Assembly: GCA_024638565.1 (NCBI GenBank)
Contig: JAHEKC010000002.1
Span: 1-60,163 of the forward strand
Origin: Bacteroidota bacterium
GTDB taxonomy: Bacteria > Bacteroidota > Bacteroidia > AKYH767-A > OLB10
Reading direction: 5' to 3'
Length of the DNA: 60,163 nt
The notes beneath the pieces were generated by a model. It worked only from the letters and a program-made list of their open reading frames with translations, did not search any database and had not been told where the DNA came from. The position numbers were made by a program, and so were the translations under genes. Below are positions 52,144 through 60,163 of the stretch, piece by piece. Position 1 is the stretch's first letter, and every line of letters starts with the position of its first letter.

Positions 52144-52527
52144 TCATGCCAGGTCCTTTTGAAGGAATCCGTTGAATTCCTCCCTCAACTCCTTAAATAT
52201 TTTTTCGAATTGCGCCAGCCGGTCTTCGTGGCTTTTATGTTTGTCCTGCAGTGACTCATCCTTGCCGTTGTTGTCCTGCTGCAATGCCTCGATAGCATTT
52301 TCGTGTTGCTTGAAATCATGTCTCATGATATCCAGCACCTCAGCCTGTACGGTAAACTGGTTTTGAAAATGTTCGATTTCCGCCATCTGTTCCTGGGGCG
52401 GCTTGTTCATTACCACTTCGTCGAGCTGCTTATTGAGCTTTTCCAGTTCACCACGGTAAAACTTGATCTTGTTTTGCCACTCCGCATGCCGGGCATGCAT
52501 GTCGAGGAGCTGTTCTTTGGTGTGCAT
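52144..52527 (-). CDS. Coiled-coil hypothetical protein
   Basis: MHTKEQLLDMHARHAEWQNKIKFYRGELEKLNKQLDEVV..., continuous charged heptad-like pattern. Confidence 0.6.
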   Translation of the reverse strand: MHTKEQLLDMHARHAEWQNKIKFYRGELEKLNKQLDEVVMNKPPQEQMAEIEHFQNQFTVQAEVLDIMRHDFKQHENAIEALQQDNNGKDESLQDKHKSHEDRLAQFEKIFKELREEFNGFLQKDLA

Positions 52528-52869: not shown

Positions 52870-53301
52870 ATGAAAAGACTCCTTATTTTAAGCATCATCG
52901 CCACAATGCTGGCCACGACGGCCTACAGCCAGACGGTACAGCTCAGCCGGAAATACCGTGTCATTGCCGTAAAGAAAGGGCAGCCGGGCATCACGAGCAT
53001 GTCCAATGAAACGGAGGTTATTCCAACCATGTACCTGTATATTCCCAGTGCCTTTACCCCTAATGGGGACGGCCTCAACGACACGTTCGGTATCCAGGGA
53101 GAATCCATCAGTGGCTTCCATATCCAGATTTTTAACCGGTGGGGGCAAATGGTTTATGAAAGCCAGGACGCCACCATGGCATGGGATGGCAGTTACAAGG
53201 GGCTGGCTGCCCCTCAGGGTGCGTATGTGTACAAGCTGGCCGCATCCAATGTCAGCGGGCGAACGATGGTAAAAAAGGGTACGGTCAACCTGGTACAATA
53301 G
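52870..53301 (+). CDS. Minimal secreted protein: signal peptide + CHU_C (T9SS type B / gliding-motility-associated) C-terminal domain
   Basis: MKRLLILSIIATMLATTAYSQ; IPSAFTPNGDGLNDTFGIQGESISGFHIQIFNRWGQMVYESQDATMAWDGSYKGLAAPQGAYVYKLAASN. Confidence 0.88.
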   Translation: MKRLLILSIIATMLATTAYSQTVQLSRKYRVIAVKKGQPGITSMSNETEVIPTMYLYIPSAFTPNGDGLNDTFGIQGESISGFHIQIFNRWGQMVYESQDATMAWDGSYKGLAAPQGAYVYKLAASNVSGRTMVKKGTVNLVQ

Positions 53302-53345: not shown

Positions 53346-53375
53346 AAGGCCGGCCTCCAGGCCGGTCTTTTGTTT
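53346..53375 (+). terminator. Rho-independent terminator
   Basis: AAGGCCGGCC-TCCA-GGCCGGTCTT stem (10 bp with one G-U) followed by TTGTTT, 44 nt after the CHU_C gene stop. Confidence 0.8.
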
Positions 53376-53523
53376 CTATCCGGGTGCATGCTTCGGCTTC
53401 CGGGAAAACACCAGCTGCCACGCGGTATCAAATCCTTAACCCTGGCCACCGCAAAGCGACGCTGAGTTTGGGTGAAATCATCTTTTTCTTTGGTGAACGT
53501 CTTTTTTTCAGGGGCGAATTGCG

Positions 53524-53691: not shown

Positions 53692-56600
53692 ATGCCAATT
53701 TTCAGACAGATCATGTTGTATCCTTTTGTACGCCGGTATACGGTACCGGCCTTATTACTGACCATTTGGTTTACCATTATTTCGCCCACGGTAAGCGGAC
53801 AAACATTCAACCCGAGGTATTACTGGAATTTCGATGACCCTGCACAGCCCATGAAAGATCAAATGGGCCAGTTCGACCTGGATCCGAATTTTTACGGATC
53901 ACCATACACGGTAAACAGCGGAACGCCGGGCCAGGGTGTGGGCGATCACCTGACGCTGGACGCGTCGTCCGACCTTTTCCGTGCAGGGTCACTACCCATC
54001 GATTCCGCATTCACGATCGAGTTCCAGTTCCGGCCCGGGTATGGGTTCAAGGAAACACGCTTCTTCTACCGCCTGGATGATGCCATCACCATCCGGATGA
54101 GCTATCCGTATATCCTCTTCCAAACACGGATCCAGACACCTGCGGGAAGCGAGTATGATGACCTCCGGGTGGAACTTGACGCCCTGGGCCGCCGGTCATA
54201 CGGTTATTACATTGACGGAGACTGGCACCACATTGTATTCAGGTACAACTCCAATACCGGGCAGAAATCGATTTGGGTAGACGGACAGGTTGCGCCCGGA
54301 TTTTCAAAAACAACCTCCACGGGTTATTTTCCGAATTCTTCAGGCGTAAACCGCGACATGGTTCTCAATACCAACATCAGCTACCAGAAATACGGGGGCG
54401 ATTATGATGAAATTGCCATTTACGGGTATGAGCTTCCTGACCGGATGATCTACAGGCATTACCTGGATTTCCAGTCCGGCCAGCATTATTCGTTTGTCAA
54501 TGCCAACCTGACCGTACCCGGTCCGGATCCGGTTACGGGCCCGATCGATCCTGATGATTTCGCTCCCGGCCATCCGGCCATAAACGTGAATGCCCTCGAG
54601 CAGCTCAGCACCTTCCCGGTTCCGCGCTACGTACCGGGGCATACCCTGCTGCCCAATTTTAACTGGATAGACCCGGTGTATATGTCGGGCCGGTTCCAGC
54701 CCGGCGTGGGCGATGCCCTGTCCGTATCCACCAGCGTGGAAATGCAACGGGTACTTGCAAGTGACTTCAATTACATGCTGCAGGTATCCAACAACAACAA
54801 TCAATGGAACGATGCCTGGATTTTTCTTGCGAACCAGAACCCACAGTGGAAACTCAGCATGATCACCTTCCGGCTGCAGTTGCCCAATGATAGAATCTCC
54901 AGCCAGTCACTTCCCAATGACCACTATCTGCAAAACAGCAGCGGCCAGTTTCTGGACCTGAATGGAAACGTTACATCGAATAAAATATGGAGACCCAGCG
55001 CACCGGTAGGCAGCTACCAGGATGACGGCAAGGATATGCTCAATTATATTAACGCAAATCTTGCCGGAAAGCTGAGCCGCCCCATCGACTTTGTCAATGA
55101 GAATGGCGAAGCGTTCCCGCTCATTTCAAATACAGCCCTGGCGAAGGATCCGCAGGTGACTGCCGGAAAGAATGCGTCCGGCCTGGGGTGGGAGGAATAC
55201 CTGGCCAACCGGTACAAGGAACATTCCACCGTCCCGTACCGGGATATCATCATGAATTCCTCCGCGTTCGCGCCCGGGACCATATATTCCGAATACCGGA
55301 TCGATGGTCACCGTGACTGGCAGTTCCGGTACAGCCAGTCAAGGCTGATCAACACCCCCATCAACGGACAGCGGTATTCAACCACCGATTTCTACGTGCG
55401 GTGGCCCAAAAACTGGCGGTGGTGGCAGGGCCCCTGGCATGGCTGGCAGTGGATCGTGGAATCGCGCATTAATGAGCTTGCCCAGGGCGACAAGCTGTTC
55501 TCGCCATTCGTGGCAGCAGGGTGGGACGAAGATTCGGAGAAGAATGTACGTCCTGCACAATGGCTCGGCCTGCTCAAAAGCCTGAGCATGCTGGGTGCCG
55601 AGTTCTTTTACACCGGATATTTCAACGAGAACGGAAGCTATATGCCCCCGAATCCCCCGCCACATGATCCCGACGGTTATATATGGCAGGCTGTCATGCC
55701 ATCCTACGCACAGGGAGTGGCAAGCCGCTATGAGCAGTTTTACCGTAACGGCGATCTGCTGGAAGGTGACGTACCCATTAGCCCGTATGATCCTGCCAGC
55801 GATATGGCACTTAACTTCTGGACTGGGGATCCGCGACAGATCGTCACCGTGCGCAAGGAGCAGAATCAGCCACGTTATGCCATCAGCGGTACGCTGCAAC
55901 CCAATTCCAATATGACGGGTGCCGCGGAAAAGGAACGCATCTCGACCATCATCCTCAATGGAGACCCGGTCACTTTCAATGTCCGTCGCCAGGGAAGCAC
56001 CTATATATATGACAATTCACAGGCGTCAGCACCGGTATTCTACCAGTTGGACGGCTGGCATGAGTCTACCCATCCCAGTCTATGGAGTACAGATTTTATC
56101 CTGGAAGCGGAGTTGTTCGATAACCAGCCTTCGTCGGTCGATATCAAAACAAGCGTCCCCCCGGGAACGCCCGTGGGCGACTTTTCGGAGTTTACCAGCT
56201 ACCTGAGCTTCCGCGCCGTTGCACCGGTGCAGTATCATTTCCAGCCCAAAGGTGCCGCACGTGATTACTATTTCTGGGTGCGCGCCCGCAGTACCGACGG
56301 AACTTCGACCGGGATAAACATAACGATGAACGGAAGTAACCAGAAGACCATCGACTGTATCACTGACACCAGCTGGAACTGGTACCGTTTTGACAAGAAC
56401 AATGCAGTCATCACCTATCCTTCCGTGACGCTGCAGGACCAGCTGCTGCAAATCATCCCGCTAAACACCAAGATTGAAATTGATGTGATCTCGCTGGTCA
56501 ACGCATCGGGTCCCGTATACGGCAGTATCCCCCCGCCTTGCAACAACGGCGCAACCATATCCGCAAGCGGTCCCACCACGTTCTGCCAGGGGCAGCAGGT

Positions 56601-59316
56601 CATACTGACTTCCAGCACCGGCGCCTCCTACCAGTGGTCAACCGGGGCCACCTCGCAGTCCATCAACGTCACTTCCTCCGGTACCTATACCGTAACCGTT
56701 GATGGCACTGATGTGGCCACCCCTGTGCAGGTAACCGTGCATCCTCTTCCCCAGGCCGGCGTAACCGCTTCCGGGCCAACCACGTTTTGCCAGGGCGAAG
56801 ACGTCACGCTTACTGCAGGAAACGGAACCGCTTACCTGTGGACACCCGGAAACCAGACCACCGCCGCCCTCACCGTAAGCACGGCCGGCAGCTACTCTGT
56901 CCGTGTCACCAACCAGTACGGCTGCTCAAAGGTTTCCCAGCCGGTATCCGTCACCGTGCAGCCCCTGCCATCGACGGCGGTTAACGCAAACGGCCCGACC
57001 ACGTTCTGTGACGGCGAACAGGTCACGCTGAGTGCTCCGCCGGGTGGTGCTTATGTATGGCTGCCGGGCAACCAGACATCACAATCGATCAATGTATATA
57101 CCCAAGGGAGCTACCAGGTCATGGTGACAGGGAGCAATGGCTGCTCCGCAACATCATCCGCCACACAGGTTACGGTTCTGCCGCTGCCACCTGCAAACGT
57201 GACTGCCAGCGGCCCGTTGTCGTTCGCTTACGGCGACAGCGTGGTGCTGACCGCAAACCCGGTTGCATCCTACTACTGGTTTCCCGGCGGCGAAACAACA
57301 CAGTCCATCACCGTATTCACAACGGGAACCTACGGCGTGCTGGTTACCGGTACGAATGGATGCACGCAATACTCCCAGGCAACCTCCGTGTTCGTCAGCA
57401 GCACGTCGACACCTGCAATTGTCCCAAGCGGGCCCACCACGTTTTGCCAGGGCAATAATGTGGTGCTTACCGCCCCCGCCGGCATTTCATTTCTCTGGTC
57501 GAACGGTGCCACCACGCAGTCCATCACAGTCACATCATCAGGACAGTACCTGGTAACCGTCCAAACGCCGACATCCTCATTCACAACTGCCCCCGAAACC
57601 GTGACGGTACATCCATTGCCAACGGCTCAAATCAGTGCCTCCGGGCCAACCGCTTTCTGCCCGGGCGGCCATGTGATCCTCCAGGCTGCAGTTGCCTCTT
57701 CTTACCTCTGGTCCCCGGGCGGCGAAACCACCCAGTCAATAACGGTATCAAGTACCGGCTCCTATTCCGTCCAGACTACCAATGTCCAGGGTTGCACGGA
57801 TGTGTCCGCAACCCTGGGTGTCACTGTAAGTCCGACCCCAGCCGCCACCATAACGCCCGGTGGTTCCACGAGCATTTGTCCCGGTGACAACGTGACCCTG
57901 CAGGCTTCCGCGGCGGCCGCCTATCTGTGGTCGCCCGGCGGTGAGACCACGCAATCTGTCGCGGTTGCCGCTGCCGGTTCGTATTCCGTACAAACGACCA
58001 ATGCGCAGGGATGCACCGCTTCTTCCGCCGTGGTATCGGTCAGTGTCAGTGCGCTGCCTGTTGCCGCCATCACCCCGGGCGGGAATACGAGTTTCTGTGA
58101 CGGGGAGACCGTGTTATTGCAGGCGGGAGCCGCGTCTTCATACCTTTGGTTGCCCGGTGGACAGACGACTGCCTCGATCAGTGTCGCAACGGCGGGAAGC
58201 TATTCCGTCCAGGTTTCGAATGCCTCCGGATGTACGGCAACCTCTCCTTCGGTACCTGTCCTGGTTTACCCGTCTCCGAATGTGATCGTATCAGCCAATG
58301 GCCCGGTGGCGTTCTGTGATGGCGGTAACGTGAATCTGCAGGCCTTTGGCGGAAGTGTTTATCAATGGTCGCCAGGCGGTCAAACGACCGCGGGAATAGT
58401 TGTGTATTCTGGCGGCGCTTATTCCGTACAGGTCACCAACAGCGACGGGTGCTCTGCGATATCCGGCGTGACAACCGTCAAGGTTTACCCCCTTCCCACG
58501 GCGACTGTCACCCCCGGGGGCTCCACTACATTATGTCATGGCGCCGGGGTCAACCTGAATGCCAGTCCCGGGACCTCGTATATATGGACCCCGGGGGGAC
58601 AGACGACCGCTTCCATATACACTACAACTTCGGGGTCCTATTCCGTACAGGTGATGAACCAGTATGGCTGCGCATCCGCCTCTGCCCCTGTAGCGGTCAC
58701 GACGCAGGGCAACTGCCCCTGCGATCCGCCACAGGGCCTGTATGAAAGCAACCTTACGGCATCAGGCGCCGTGCTGAACTGGACACCGGCTGCCGGGGCT
58801 GACAGCATGCAAATACTCCTGTTCAGGGTTTTTCCCTCCCCGAGGATGAAAATCATCGACGGCATTGGAGGTGCTCAGACAAGTATGGCCATCAGTGTAT
58901 TCCCAAGCGCATGGTACATGTGGAGAATGCGGTCCTATTGCGGCGGATCGAGGAGTGCATGGTCATCTCTTAATTGGTTTTATACCCCTTTTGTGAAGAC
59001 CACGGGTCCCGGCCGGCAGGACATTCCGGTTCTTCCGCAACCCGTTCGCACCGCATCCCAGGGTCCGGATCATATGCTGGTGTATCCCAACCCCGCGCAT
59101 GACCGGGTAACCATCCGTTTCACTGCCCCTGTAAACGGCCATGCGTTCTGGCTGCTCAAGGATGGAAGAGGCAAGGTGATCCGCCAGTCCGATATTATCG
59201 TTAACGAAGGGGTCAACATTTTGGAAACGGAAATTGCCGAAGTTGTTCCCGGGCTCTATTTCATCGAGATCGCTAATGACCGCATGCAGCATCTCGGAAA
59301 GGTCGTCATCCATTAG
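53692..59316 (+). CDS. 1874-aa secreted multidomain protein: LamG/ConA-like + uncharacterised putative catalytic domain + CBM-like domain + ten Ig-like repeats + FnIII-like + T9SS type A sorting domain
   Basis: RYYWNFDDPAQPMKDQMGQFDLDPNFYG...FTIEFQFRPGYGFKETRFFYR (LamG-like); WDEDSEKNVRPAQWLGLLKSLSMLGAEFFYTGYFNENG; PKGAARDYYFWVRARSTDGTSTGINITMNGS (CBM6/35-like); repeats GPTTFCQGxxVxLTA...; C-terminal MLVYPNPAHDRVTIRFTAPV...GLYFIEIANDRMQHLGKVVIH. Confidence 0.85.
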   Translation: MPIFRQIMLYPFVRRYTVPALLLTIWFTIISPTVSGQTFNPRYYWNFDDPAQPMKDQMGQFDLDPNFYGSPYTVNSGTPGQGVGDHLTLDASSDLFRAGSLPIDSAFTIEFQFRPGYGFKETRFFYRLDDAITIRMSYPYILFQTRIQTPAGSEYDDLRVELDALGRRSYGYYIDGDWHHIVFRYNSNTGQKSIWVDGQVAPGFSKTTSTGYFPNSSGVNRDMVLNTNISYQKYGGDYDEIAIYGYELPDRMIYRHYLDFQSGQHYSFVNANLTVPGPDPVTGPIDPDDFAPGHPAINVNALEQLSTFPVPRYVPGHTLLPNFNWIDPVYMSGRFQPGVGDALSVSTSVEMQRVLASDFNYMLQVSNNNNQWNDAWIFLANQNPQWKLSMITFRLQLPNDRISSQSLPNDHYLQNSSGQFLDLNGNVTSNKIWRPSAPVGSYQDDGKDMLNYINANLAGKLSRPIDFVNENGEAFPLISNTALAKDPQVTAGKNASGLGWEEYLANRYKEHSTVPYRDIIMNSSAFAPGTIYSEYRIDGHRDWQFRYSQSRLINTPINGQRYSTTDFYVRWPKNWRWWQGPWHGWQWIVESRINELAQGDKLFSPFVAAGWDEDSEKNVRPAQWLGLLKSLSMLGAEFFYTGYFNENGSYMPPNPPPHDPDGYIWQAVMPSYAQGVASRYEQFYRNGDLLEGDVPISPYDPASDMALNFWTGDPRQIVTVRKEQNQPRYAISGTLQPNSNMTGAAEKERISTIILNGDPVTFNVRRQGSTYIYDNSQASAPVFYQLDGWHESTHPSLWSTDFILEAELFDNQPSSVDIKTSVPPGTPVGDFSEFTSYLSFRAVAPVQYHFQPKGAARDYYFWVRARSTDGTSTGINITMNGSNQKTIDCITDTSWNWYRFDKNNAVITYPSVTLQDQLLQIIPLNTKIEIDVISLVNASGPVYGSIPPPCNNGATISASGPTTFCQGQQVILTSSTGASYQWSTGATSQSINVTSSGTYTVTVDGTDVATPVQVTVHPLPQAGVTASGPTTFCQGEDVTLTAGNGTAYLWTPGNQTTAALTVSTAGSYSVRVTNQYGCSKVSQPVSVTVQPLPSTAVNANGPTTFCDGEQVTLSAPPGGAYVWLPGNQTSQSINVYTQGSYQVMVTGSNGCSATSSATQVTVLPLPPANVTASGPLSFAYGDSVVLTANPVASYYWFPGGETTQSITVFTTGTYGVLVTGTNGCTQYSQATSVFVSSTSTPAIVPSGPTTFCQGNNVVLTAPAGISFLWSNGATTQSITVTSSGQYLVTVQTPTSSFTTAPETVTVHPLPTAQISASGPTAFCPGGHVILQAAVASSYLWSPGGETTQSITVSSTGSYSVQTTNVQGCTDVSATLGVTVSPTPAATITPGGSTSICPGDNVTLQASAAAAYLWSPGGETTQSVAVAAAGSYSVQTTNAQGCTASSAVVSVSVSALPVAAITPGGNTSFCDGETVLLQAGAASSYLWLPGGQTTASISVATAGSYSVQVSNASGCTATSPSVPVLVYPSPNVIVSANGPVAFCDGGNVNLQAFGGSVYQWSPGGQTTAGIVVYSGGAYSVQVTNSDGCSAISGVTTVKVYPLPTATVTPGGSTTLCHGAGVNLNASPGTSYIWTPGGQTTASIYTTTSGSYSVQVMNQYGCASASAPVAVTTQGNCPCDPPQGLYESNLTASGAVLNWTPAAGADSMQILLFRVFPSPRMKIIDGIGGAQTSMAISVFPSAWYMWRMRSYCGGSRSAWSSLNWFYTPFVKTTGPGRQDIPVLPQPVRTASQGPDHMLVYPNPAHDRVTIRFTAPVNGHAFWLLKDGRGKVIRQSDIIVNEGVNILETEIAEVVPGLYFIEIANDRMQHLGKVVIH
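56557..58713 (+). repeat. Ten tandem ~219-bp (73-aa) Ig/PKD-like repeats within the 1874-aa protein
   Basis: Consensus xxIxxxGPTTFCxGxxVxLxAxxxxxYxWxPGGxTTxSIxVxxxGSYSVxVTNxxGCxxxSxxxxVxVxPxP recurs ten times. Confidence 0.9.
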
Positions 59317-59338
59317 AAGGCTGACAAATGCTTTCATG

Positions 59339-59367
59339 GGCCCGGCTGCTGCCGGGCCTTTTTTTTT
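59339..59367 (+). terminator. Strong rho-independent terminator
   Basis: GGCCCGGC-TGCT-GCCGGGCC (8-bp perfect stem) followed by T9, 22 nt after the stop of the 1874-aa gene. Confidence 0.92.
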
Positions 59368-59735
59368 AATCAGGGCATGCACAATCCGTGCCCTGCAATA
59401 CTGTTTTCACTGGCTGAATAAGATGGCTCAGGCTTTTTCTTACGCGTGAAACGGATGGGTTGCTTGCCGGGCATTTCCGGTAACCAGCCCGTTAGCATCA
59501 AAATCCCGGGAAATATAAACGCAGAATGCGGGAAACGGCCGTTTCCTTACGCATGATATAAAGCGCCGGAGATTCCGGGAACGACAGGCTGTTCCTGCCG
59601 TTTATTGGGTTGTTGTACATGAAGCCTTCTTCCTCCACACACTTATCGAATGGATTGCAAACACCATACCCGGTTCATCGGATTGTAAGGTATGTGTAAG
59701 GTCAGGAATGAAAAACAAACCACACAAATAAAACC

Positions 59736-60163
59736 ATGAAATTATTCTACAAAAATGACCTGTCCGGGAACGACTCCCTGATCAAAACGGGAATCTGGAT
59801 CAGCTTCCTGATTGCCTTTTTACTTCTGGCTTCCACTTATGCCTCGACTGCACAGTCAGTAATCGTACCCGAGCGCTACTACACGTTTAACAGCGCCAAT
59901 CCTTCAGCGGATTCCACGGGAACCGCCGACCTTAATTTTTTATTCTACGGCTGCCAGTACACCCATGAATCCGGAGGGCAGGTAGGAGACTTCCTGCGCC
60001 TGGGCGACGGCGGGAACCTGATCAACGCGGCCACGCTGGATCTGGATACCGCCATTACAGTGGAGTTCCTGATGCGGGTGGGTCACGGGTTTAACAATAC
60101 CGGCTTCATCCGGCGTGGTGACGGGGTTTTCGACATACGCATCAACTATCCTGAAATTTACTT
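59736..60163 (+). CDS. Second LamG-like secreted protein, paralogous to 53692-59316; 3'-truncated at window edge
   Basis: ATG 59736 opens MKLFYKNDLSGNDSLIKTGIWISFLIAFLLLASTYASTAQSVIVPERYYTFNSANPSADSTGTADLNFLFYGCQYTHESGGQVGDFLRLGDGGNLINAATLDLDTAITVEFLMRVGHGFNNTGFIRRGDGVFDIRINYPEIY, open to the window end; missing from the ORF track. Confidence 0.85.
   Translation, partial: MKLFYKNDLSGNDSLIKTGIWISFLIAFLLLASTYASTAQSVIVPERYYTFNSANPSADSTGTADLNFLFYGCQYTHESGGQVGDFLRLGDGGNLINAATLDLDTAITVEFLMRVGHGFNNTGFIRRGDGVFDIRINYPEIY

Follow-up and report, generated by a model that had tools for sequence, protein, structure and literature searches.

Genes A and B, two giant genes in tandem, lie at the 3′ end of the window, the whole stretch of 60,163 nucleotides analyzed here (bases 1-60163 of an 88111-base, 88-kb scaffold, C70). 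On balance, we favor the reading that their products are a long-standing pair of surface proteins, exported by the type IX secretion system (T9SS), that are predicted to bind, and probably to cleave or trim, a polysaccharide. Computation establishes the paralogy of the two genes, their domain order, their secretion tail, the presence of the SprA gene in the genome, the family-wide conservation of the pair and the mosaic ancestry of gene A. An earlier note on this DNA had guessed at a glycan-binding or -degrading surface system. A role of this kind is a prediction that the data below support or are consistent with, and the guess was reasonable though incomplete: the pair is old and family-wide, its shared core is unclassified, and gene A is a gene-conversion mosaic.

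Genes A and B are tandem paralogs

The two genes and the hairpins that border them are as follows.

53692-59316, + strand: gene A, a 1874-aa giant T9SS-secreted protein in the upstream position of the pair (open frame; T9SS tail)
59736-60163, + strand: first 142 aa of gene B (leader and first half of the LamG-like domain)
59338-59367, + strand: rho-independent terminator after gene A (hairpin 59338-59359)
53346-53377, + strand: terminator-like hairpin between the CHU_C gene and gene A (hairpin 53346-53369)

The visible N-terminus of B is identical to that of A at 44 of 101 positions (44%, E 3e-19), so the match, which the earlier note had aligned by eye, is not due to chance. The N-terminal homology claimed is real, but its extent was underestimated: it runs ∼700 aa further, with 53-55% identity between A and B, and the gene at 59736 is a tandem paralog of A, as proposed.

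The edge of the window coincides with a scaffold gap of 37 N (C70:60164-60200). Gene B, which had been suspected to be hidden by this edge, resumes past the gap with 1514 aa in a frame homologous to A and ends at C70:64747. Aligned with A, B lacks about 102 aa (∼306 bp); since these would fall inside the gap, the real gap should be about 300 bases and B about 1760 aa long. The orthologs of B in two sister-genus genomes are unbroken at the gap position and have the whole LamG domain. An artefact of the window edge was considered and rejected, because the break is a scaffold gap inside one continuing gene. When the contig was followed beyond 60163 no early stop was found, and neither of the two outcomes that the note had named as contrary to it, B stopping early or unrelated N-termini, occurred.

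Both proteins begin with signal-peptide-like leaders of their own, as read from the sequence and as the note had stated. The strong terminator it had placed after A is present (a 9-pair stem with 8 G-C pairs, followed by 8 T), and from this hairpin and the one before A the two genes are probably transcribed independently, in line with the note.

Modular organization of the pair

The order in A is leader, LamG/ConA-like domain, barrel, beta-sandwich, CBM6/35-like domain, ∼10 Ig-like repeats, an FN3-like stretch and the T9SS tail. The modules of A, with the evidence that delimits them in brackets, are as follows.

53806-54426, + strand: N-terminal LamG/ConA-like jelly roll, A aa ∼39-245 (Laminin_G_3, model, Foldseek)
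54559-55671, + strand: predicted orphan (beta/alpha)8-like barrel, A aa ∼290-660 (conservation, model, Foldseek, similarity profile, segment trees)
55789-56076, + strand: beta-sandwich after the barrel, A aa ∼700-795 (models; conservation)
56083-56511, + strand: CBM6/35-like jelly roll, A aa ∼798-940 (model; weak profile matches; Foldseek)
56530-58761, + strand: Ig-like repeats, about 10 of ∼73 aa, A aa ∼947-1690 (repeat HMM and listing)
59080-59313, + strand: T9SS type A C-terminal sorting domain, A aa ∼1797-1874 (PF18962)

The LamG-like domain reported earlier was recovered both by profile and by fold. Laminin_G_3 (PF13385) matched A with E 4.5e-5 and 24.1 bits, under the gathering threshold of 27.6; the best E among 16 relatives was 1.3e-6, and the threshold was exceeded in the distant relatives L099 and L114 (32.5 and 32.0 bits). 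This part of the model has a pLDDT of mostly 70-90, and Foldseek matched it to domain 4 of AbnA (E 2.3e-8, TMt 0.71). The beta-sandwich carries the motif RRQGSxYxYD...QLDxWHExxHP. The CBM6/35-like part is modeled at a pLDDT of ∼70-87; in a few members, weak profile matches to GH115_C, CBM60 and CBM_6 fell in the C-terminal modules only, and Xyn30D (4qaw) was among the Foldseek matches.

The stalk repeats of A are of the same type as those of GhpA of Aureispira (PDB 9flp; E 5e-91), and their number varies from about 2 to 14 across full or partial relatives. The part of B past the gap includes 6 Ig-like repeats and FN3 domains and ends in its own T9SS tail, so that the "different tails" ascribed to the two proteins proved largely wrong: both consist of Ig-like repeats and a sorting tail. 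The tail of A is marginal (PF18962, 27.3 bits vs. a gathering threshold of 27.0; TIGR04183, 22 vs. 23) and that of B is stronger (PF18962, 40.2 vs. 27; TIGR04183, 47.8 vs. 23). The genome has the translocon gene sprA (SprA, full-model match of 2529 bits; 0 of 14 control genomes matched), and T9SS secretion, which the note had assumed, is supported by the two tails and this gene.

The genome also holds many other giant frames (1800-3267 aa) with Ig-like repeats, on contigs C29, C61, C122, C141 and C150; several are consecutive on C61, and together they make up a large repertoire of repeat-bearing surface proteins.

The central barrel belongs to no recognized family

When single proteins and alignments of 16 and 44 members were searched, the barrel had no sequence match in Pfam, NCBIfam or PDB. 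Weak profile matches, such as those to P2_Phage_GpR, DUF3540 and DAGK_cat, were set aside as due to chance. Profile-profile comparison with glycoside hydrolase (GH) families covered GH29 and GH27, and hhalign returned probabilities of 0.4% against GH29 (PF01120) and 0.1% against GH27 (PF16499); at the sequence level, membership in a known GH family is not supported.

Among 44 relatives, some with as little as ∼32% identity, the residues invariant in all (44/44) are E473, part of a NENGE motif, W575, D600, Q623, K629 and W665, as well as several of the beta-sandwich; E470 is E or D in 43 of the 44. The invariant acids E473 and D600, together with the near-invariant E470, argue for an active site, with the putative catalytic residues named here as guesses.

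In a 930-aa model the LamG and C-terminal beta domains were good, and much of the barrel had a pLDDT <50. A trimmed 533-aa model reached a mean pLDDT of 62 and a pTM of 0.56, with strands alternating with helices; the other four models were <49. The Foldseek matches listed for the 533-aa model were overwhelmingly (beta/alpha)8 glycosidases or their non-catalytic homologs: GH29, GH13, GH27, GH36, GH30, GH31 and others were represented among them, and a small number, including rBAT and CD98, were homologs that are not catalytic. The best match was to GH29 (probability 1.00, E 7e-5), and the TM-scores were low, mostly 0.2-0.4 (query TM-scores mostly 0.2-0.3). A glycosidase-like (beta/alpha)8 fold is thus likely, as judged from a model of low-to-middling confidence.

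Many (beta/alpha)8 glycosidases carry a catalytic acid at the fourth strand. E473 appears to lie near the putative fourth strand of the barrel, a placement read from a weak model and by analogy with these glycosidase families.

Gene A is a mosaic of two paralogs

In whole-domain trees the upstream copies of other genera formed one starred clade. A and B of this genome, together with the pairs of two sister-genus genomes (the upstream and downstream copies of these three genomes, hereafter the own six), formed another (95/99), placed among the downstream copies, and holding all upstream copies together was rejected (p 1.4e-5). The similarity profile of gene A is upstream-like to ∼aa 275, downstream-like from ∼290 to 660 and upstream-like again after ∼666.

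Trees of the separate segments conflict accordingly. With the LamG segment, A grouped with the upstream copies and a clade of the own six was rejected (p 9e-9). With the C-terminal segment, the own-six clade was also rejected (p 0.003), and all upstream copies grouped together (93/96, not starred). With the barrel segment, the own six formed a clade (100/98), A being placed with the downstream copies, and monophyly of all upstream copies was rejected (p 9e-5). The segments were picked after the profile had been seen, which makes the p values somewhat too favorable, but the conflicts for LamG and barrel amount to 59 and 70 log-likelihood units, which is large. Gene A is therefore a mosaic, with LamG and C-terminal modules from the upstream paralog and the barrel from the downstream one, and the tract exchanged corresponds roughly to one domain, the barrel coordinates being close to its limits. 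The trees are most simply explained if, before genera g1 and g7 split, gene conversion replaced the barrel of the upstream copy with that of the downstream one.

In another pair of genera (g6/g8), the downstream copy has a LamG domain that groups with the upstream one (98/96), apparently the trace of a second, independent conversion event in a different domain. In most genera the upstream- and downstream-type barrels share about 35-45% identity over much of their length, and so strong a divergence suggests two activities or specificities. In the lineage of the window, both copies have a downstream-type barrel and differ in their binding modules.

Distribution of the domain family

The central domain of A and B was found in 22 of the 25 genomes of the window's family (f1, known here from metagenome-assembled genomes only). 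At least two matches were present in 18 of these 22 genomes; in one genome, several were fragments of broken copies. The central domain was found in 0 of 18 other genomes of the order. In a sample of Bacteroidia it is patchy, as LamG-barrel proteins of ∼920-980 aa or proteins of ∼680 aa with neither LamG nor stalk, and among 396 genomes across the phylum there was one further full-length match (G667, same class) besides that of the window. A scan of viral contigs for relatives found none. The pair is an old fixture across family f1. A literature search found no description of such a pair, within partial coverage of a literature that is not searchable by sequence.

Some copies depart from the common form. 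The downstream copy of L049 (G013:C31) is broken by one in-frame TGA, either a pseudogene or a sequencing error, and G019:C14:1725-4438 holds a third, fragmented copy with TAA stops. Extra divergent barrel proteins of 2100-2750 aa occur in one genus, on a long branch of their own (L052 and L053 in G009, and G014:C26). In genus g2 (L060, L062, L064) the downstream copy has no LamG domain and begins shortly before the barrel.

Genomic context

The upstream copy follows lpxC-fabZ, lpxA, an ABC ATPase and a ∼145-aa CHU_C protein in fourteen of the loci inspected, including that of the window, where the last of these is:

52870-53301, + strand: 143-aa protein with leader and CHU_C (T9SS type B) domain (CHU_C E 8.6e-21; synteny)

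Homologs of this protein (∼145-165 aa) stand immediately upstream of the pair in other genera, with CHU_C present in four relatives, and it could be a partner of the pair. On the opposite strand (52144-52527, − strand) lies a 127-aa predicted coiled-coil-like protein, found at the same syntenic position in 11 loci; its relative in L058 had no Pfam match.

In eight loci (L058, L059, L060 and others), a gene of opposite orientation 3′ of the barrel gene encodes a homolog of the exo-beta-N-acetylmuramidase NamZ, and in most of these loci an FtsX-like permease comes next. In the lineage of the window both are missing 3′ of the pair, and yidC is found there instead.

No susCD, sulfatase or known CAZyme gene, the neighbors that the note had proposed to look for, was recognized among the ORFs listed for the window and the next 26 kb (by inspection and Pfam scans of ten neighbors), and a search of the genome for a single SusD family, SusD_RagB (PF07980), found no member. 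The pair does not look like a PUL-type system, and the neighboring lpx genes are not polysaccharide-degradation genes.

A glycosyltransferase (GT)/Wzy cluster occurs in the same scaffold (C70 ∼71000-76900), some 6-12 kb past the end of B. Three of the four f6 homologs lie within or beside such clusters: L099 and L101 each belong to a Wzy/GT operon whose genes share one strand and are very closely spaced, and L100 has GT genes on its flanks. The operons of L099 and L101 encode glycosyltransferases, Wzy_C, a hexapeptide transferase and an asparagine-synthase-like protein. In other families, the neighbors of standalone relatives are unrelated metabolic genes. A polysaccharide link drawn from glycosyltransferase neighbors, mainly those in f6, is suggestive only.

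Proposed function and alternative explanations

Under the reading that we favor, the type IX system would export both proteins, to be shown on, or released from, the cell surface. The LamG/ConA-like and CBM6/35-like end modules, both putatively carbohydrate-binding, would hold a polysaccharide and offer it to the barrel between them, which is probably a catalytic glycosidase and would cleave it. The Ig/FN3 stalk would carry the modules and the sorting tail would deliver the protein. The putative substrate is a polysaccharide outside the cell, which may be one that the cell itself makes. In the lineage of the window, the upstream copy kept its own binding and tail modules and gained the downstream barrel by gene conversion. 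A bolder version, which we advance tentatively, is that the barrel founds a new GH family, present as a tandem T9SS pair throughout one Bacteroidota family, whose paralogs have repeatedly swapped single domains by conversion (the catalytic barrel in the lineage of the window and apparently LamG in g6/g8).

A more specific form of the favored reading would make the pair a processor of the cell's own exopolysaccharide (EPS), capsule or O-antigen, trimming or remodeling it during or after export. The f6 loci (L099 and L101 in Wzy/GT operons, L100 flanked by GT genes), the place of the pair after the lipid-A (lpx) genes and the GT/Wzy cluster at C70 ∼71000-76900 point this way, and PgaB, which acts in this way on PNAG, is a precedent for a GH domain in an EPS operon (PMC5933820). 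However, most homologs outside f1 and f6 are away from GT genes, the closeness to lpx may be simple inheritance, and the terminators speak against co-transcription with the neighbors; we regard this form as somewhat doubtful. An unlikely alternative is that A and B are non-catalytic adhesins, with a dead or purely binding barrel, used for attachment to algae, particles or cells on Ig stalks. The long stalks, with a repeat number that changes several-fold between relatives and a repeat type shared with the Aureispira grappling-hook protein, would suit such a role, as would the failure to find SusD_RagB in the genome. Yet the polar and acidic residues of the barrel are invariant even in the standalone ∼680-aa proteins that have neither stalk nor LamG, and the common denominator of the family is the barrel rather than the stalk.

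It is also conceivable, though very improbable, that the pair is just an ordinary tandem duplication, recent and confined to this lineage. The whole-domain tree, which unites A and B of this and two sister-genus genomes (95/99), is what such a duplication would give, but the LamG and C-terminal trees follow the old upstream/downstream split and only the barrel joins A to B, and the pair occupies the same lpx-CHU_C position in other genera. The segment trees led us to reject a simple recent duplication, and we retain the long-standing polysaccharide-active pair as the best explanation.

Significance and comparison with known systems

These data suggest that (i) the ∼700 aa shared by A and B define a protein family that has no name yet; some of its acidic and aromatic residues are invariant, its fold is likely that of a glycosidase, it is near-universal within a single Bacteroidota family and it is sometimes encoded in polysaccharide-synthesis operons, all of which recommend it as a concrete candidate for a new family of glycoside hydrolases; and (ii) the conflict between segment trees marks A as a clear case of conversion whose limits roughly follow those of a domain. 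If the bolder version given above is true, domain exchange would re-pair binding and catalytic specificities without gene re-ordering.

Like the T9SS modular polysaccharide-active enzymes of Bacteroidota, the pair combines a signal peptide, binding modules, a glycosidase-like barrel, Ig/FN3 linkers and a type A tail; in contrast to them, its barrel is outside the recognized Pfam, NCBIfam and PDB families, it forms a conserved tandem, and no SusD_RagB gene was found. The likeness to GH29, GH27, GH36 and GH13 glycosidases consists in a predicted barrel followed by a beta-sandwich and in the top Foldseek matches, but it comes without profile similarity to GH29 or GH27 and with low TM-scores, GH36 and GH13 being compared by fold only. 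The N-terminal domain of A has the same ConA-like jelly roll as Laminin_G_3 and domain 4 of AbnA, the C-terminal binding domain of a GH43 arabinanase (TMt 0.71); clostridial neurotoxin binding domains, also in the LamG Foldseek list, share this fold, with no bearing on function here. GhpA has the Ig-like stalk repeat type in common with A, but it is a protein of 5898 aa, matched only via its repeats and with no match to the barrel. Some LamG-barrel homologs reside in Wzy/GT operons, as PgaB-type glycosidases do in exopolysaccharide operons, whereas the window pair is outside operons of this type, and its sequence showed no relationship to that of PgaB. The pair is thus of a known kind, the modular T9SS surface carbohydrate-active proteins; new are its unclassified core domain and the domain-scale conversion between tandem paralogs.
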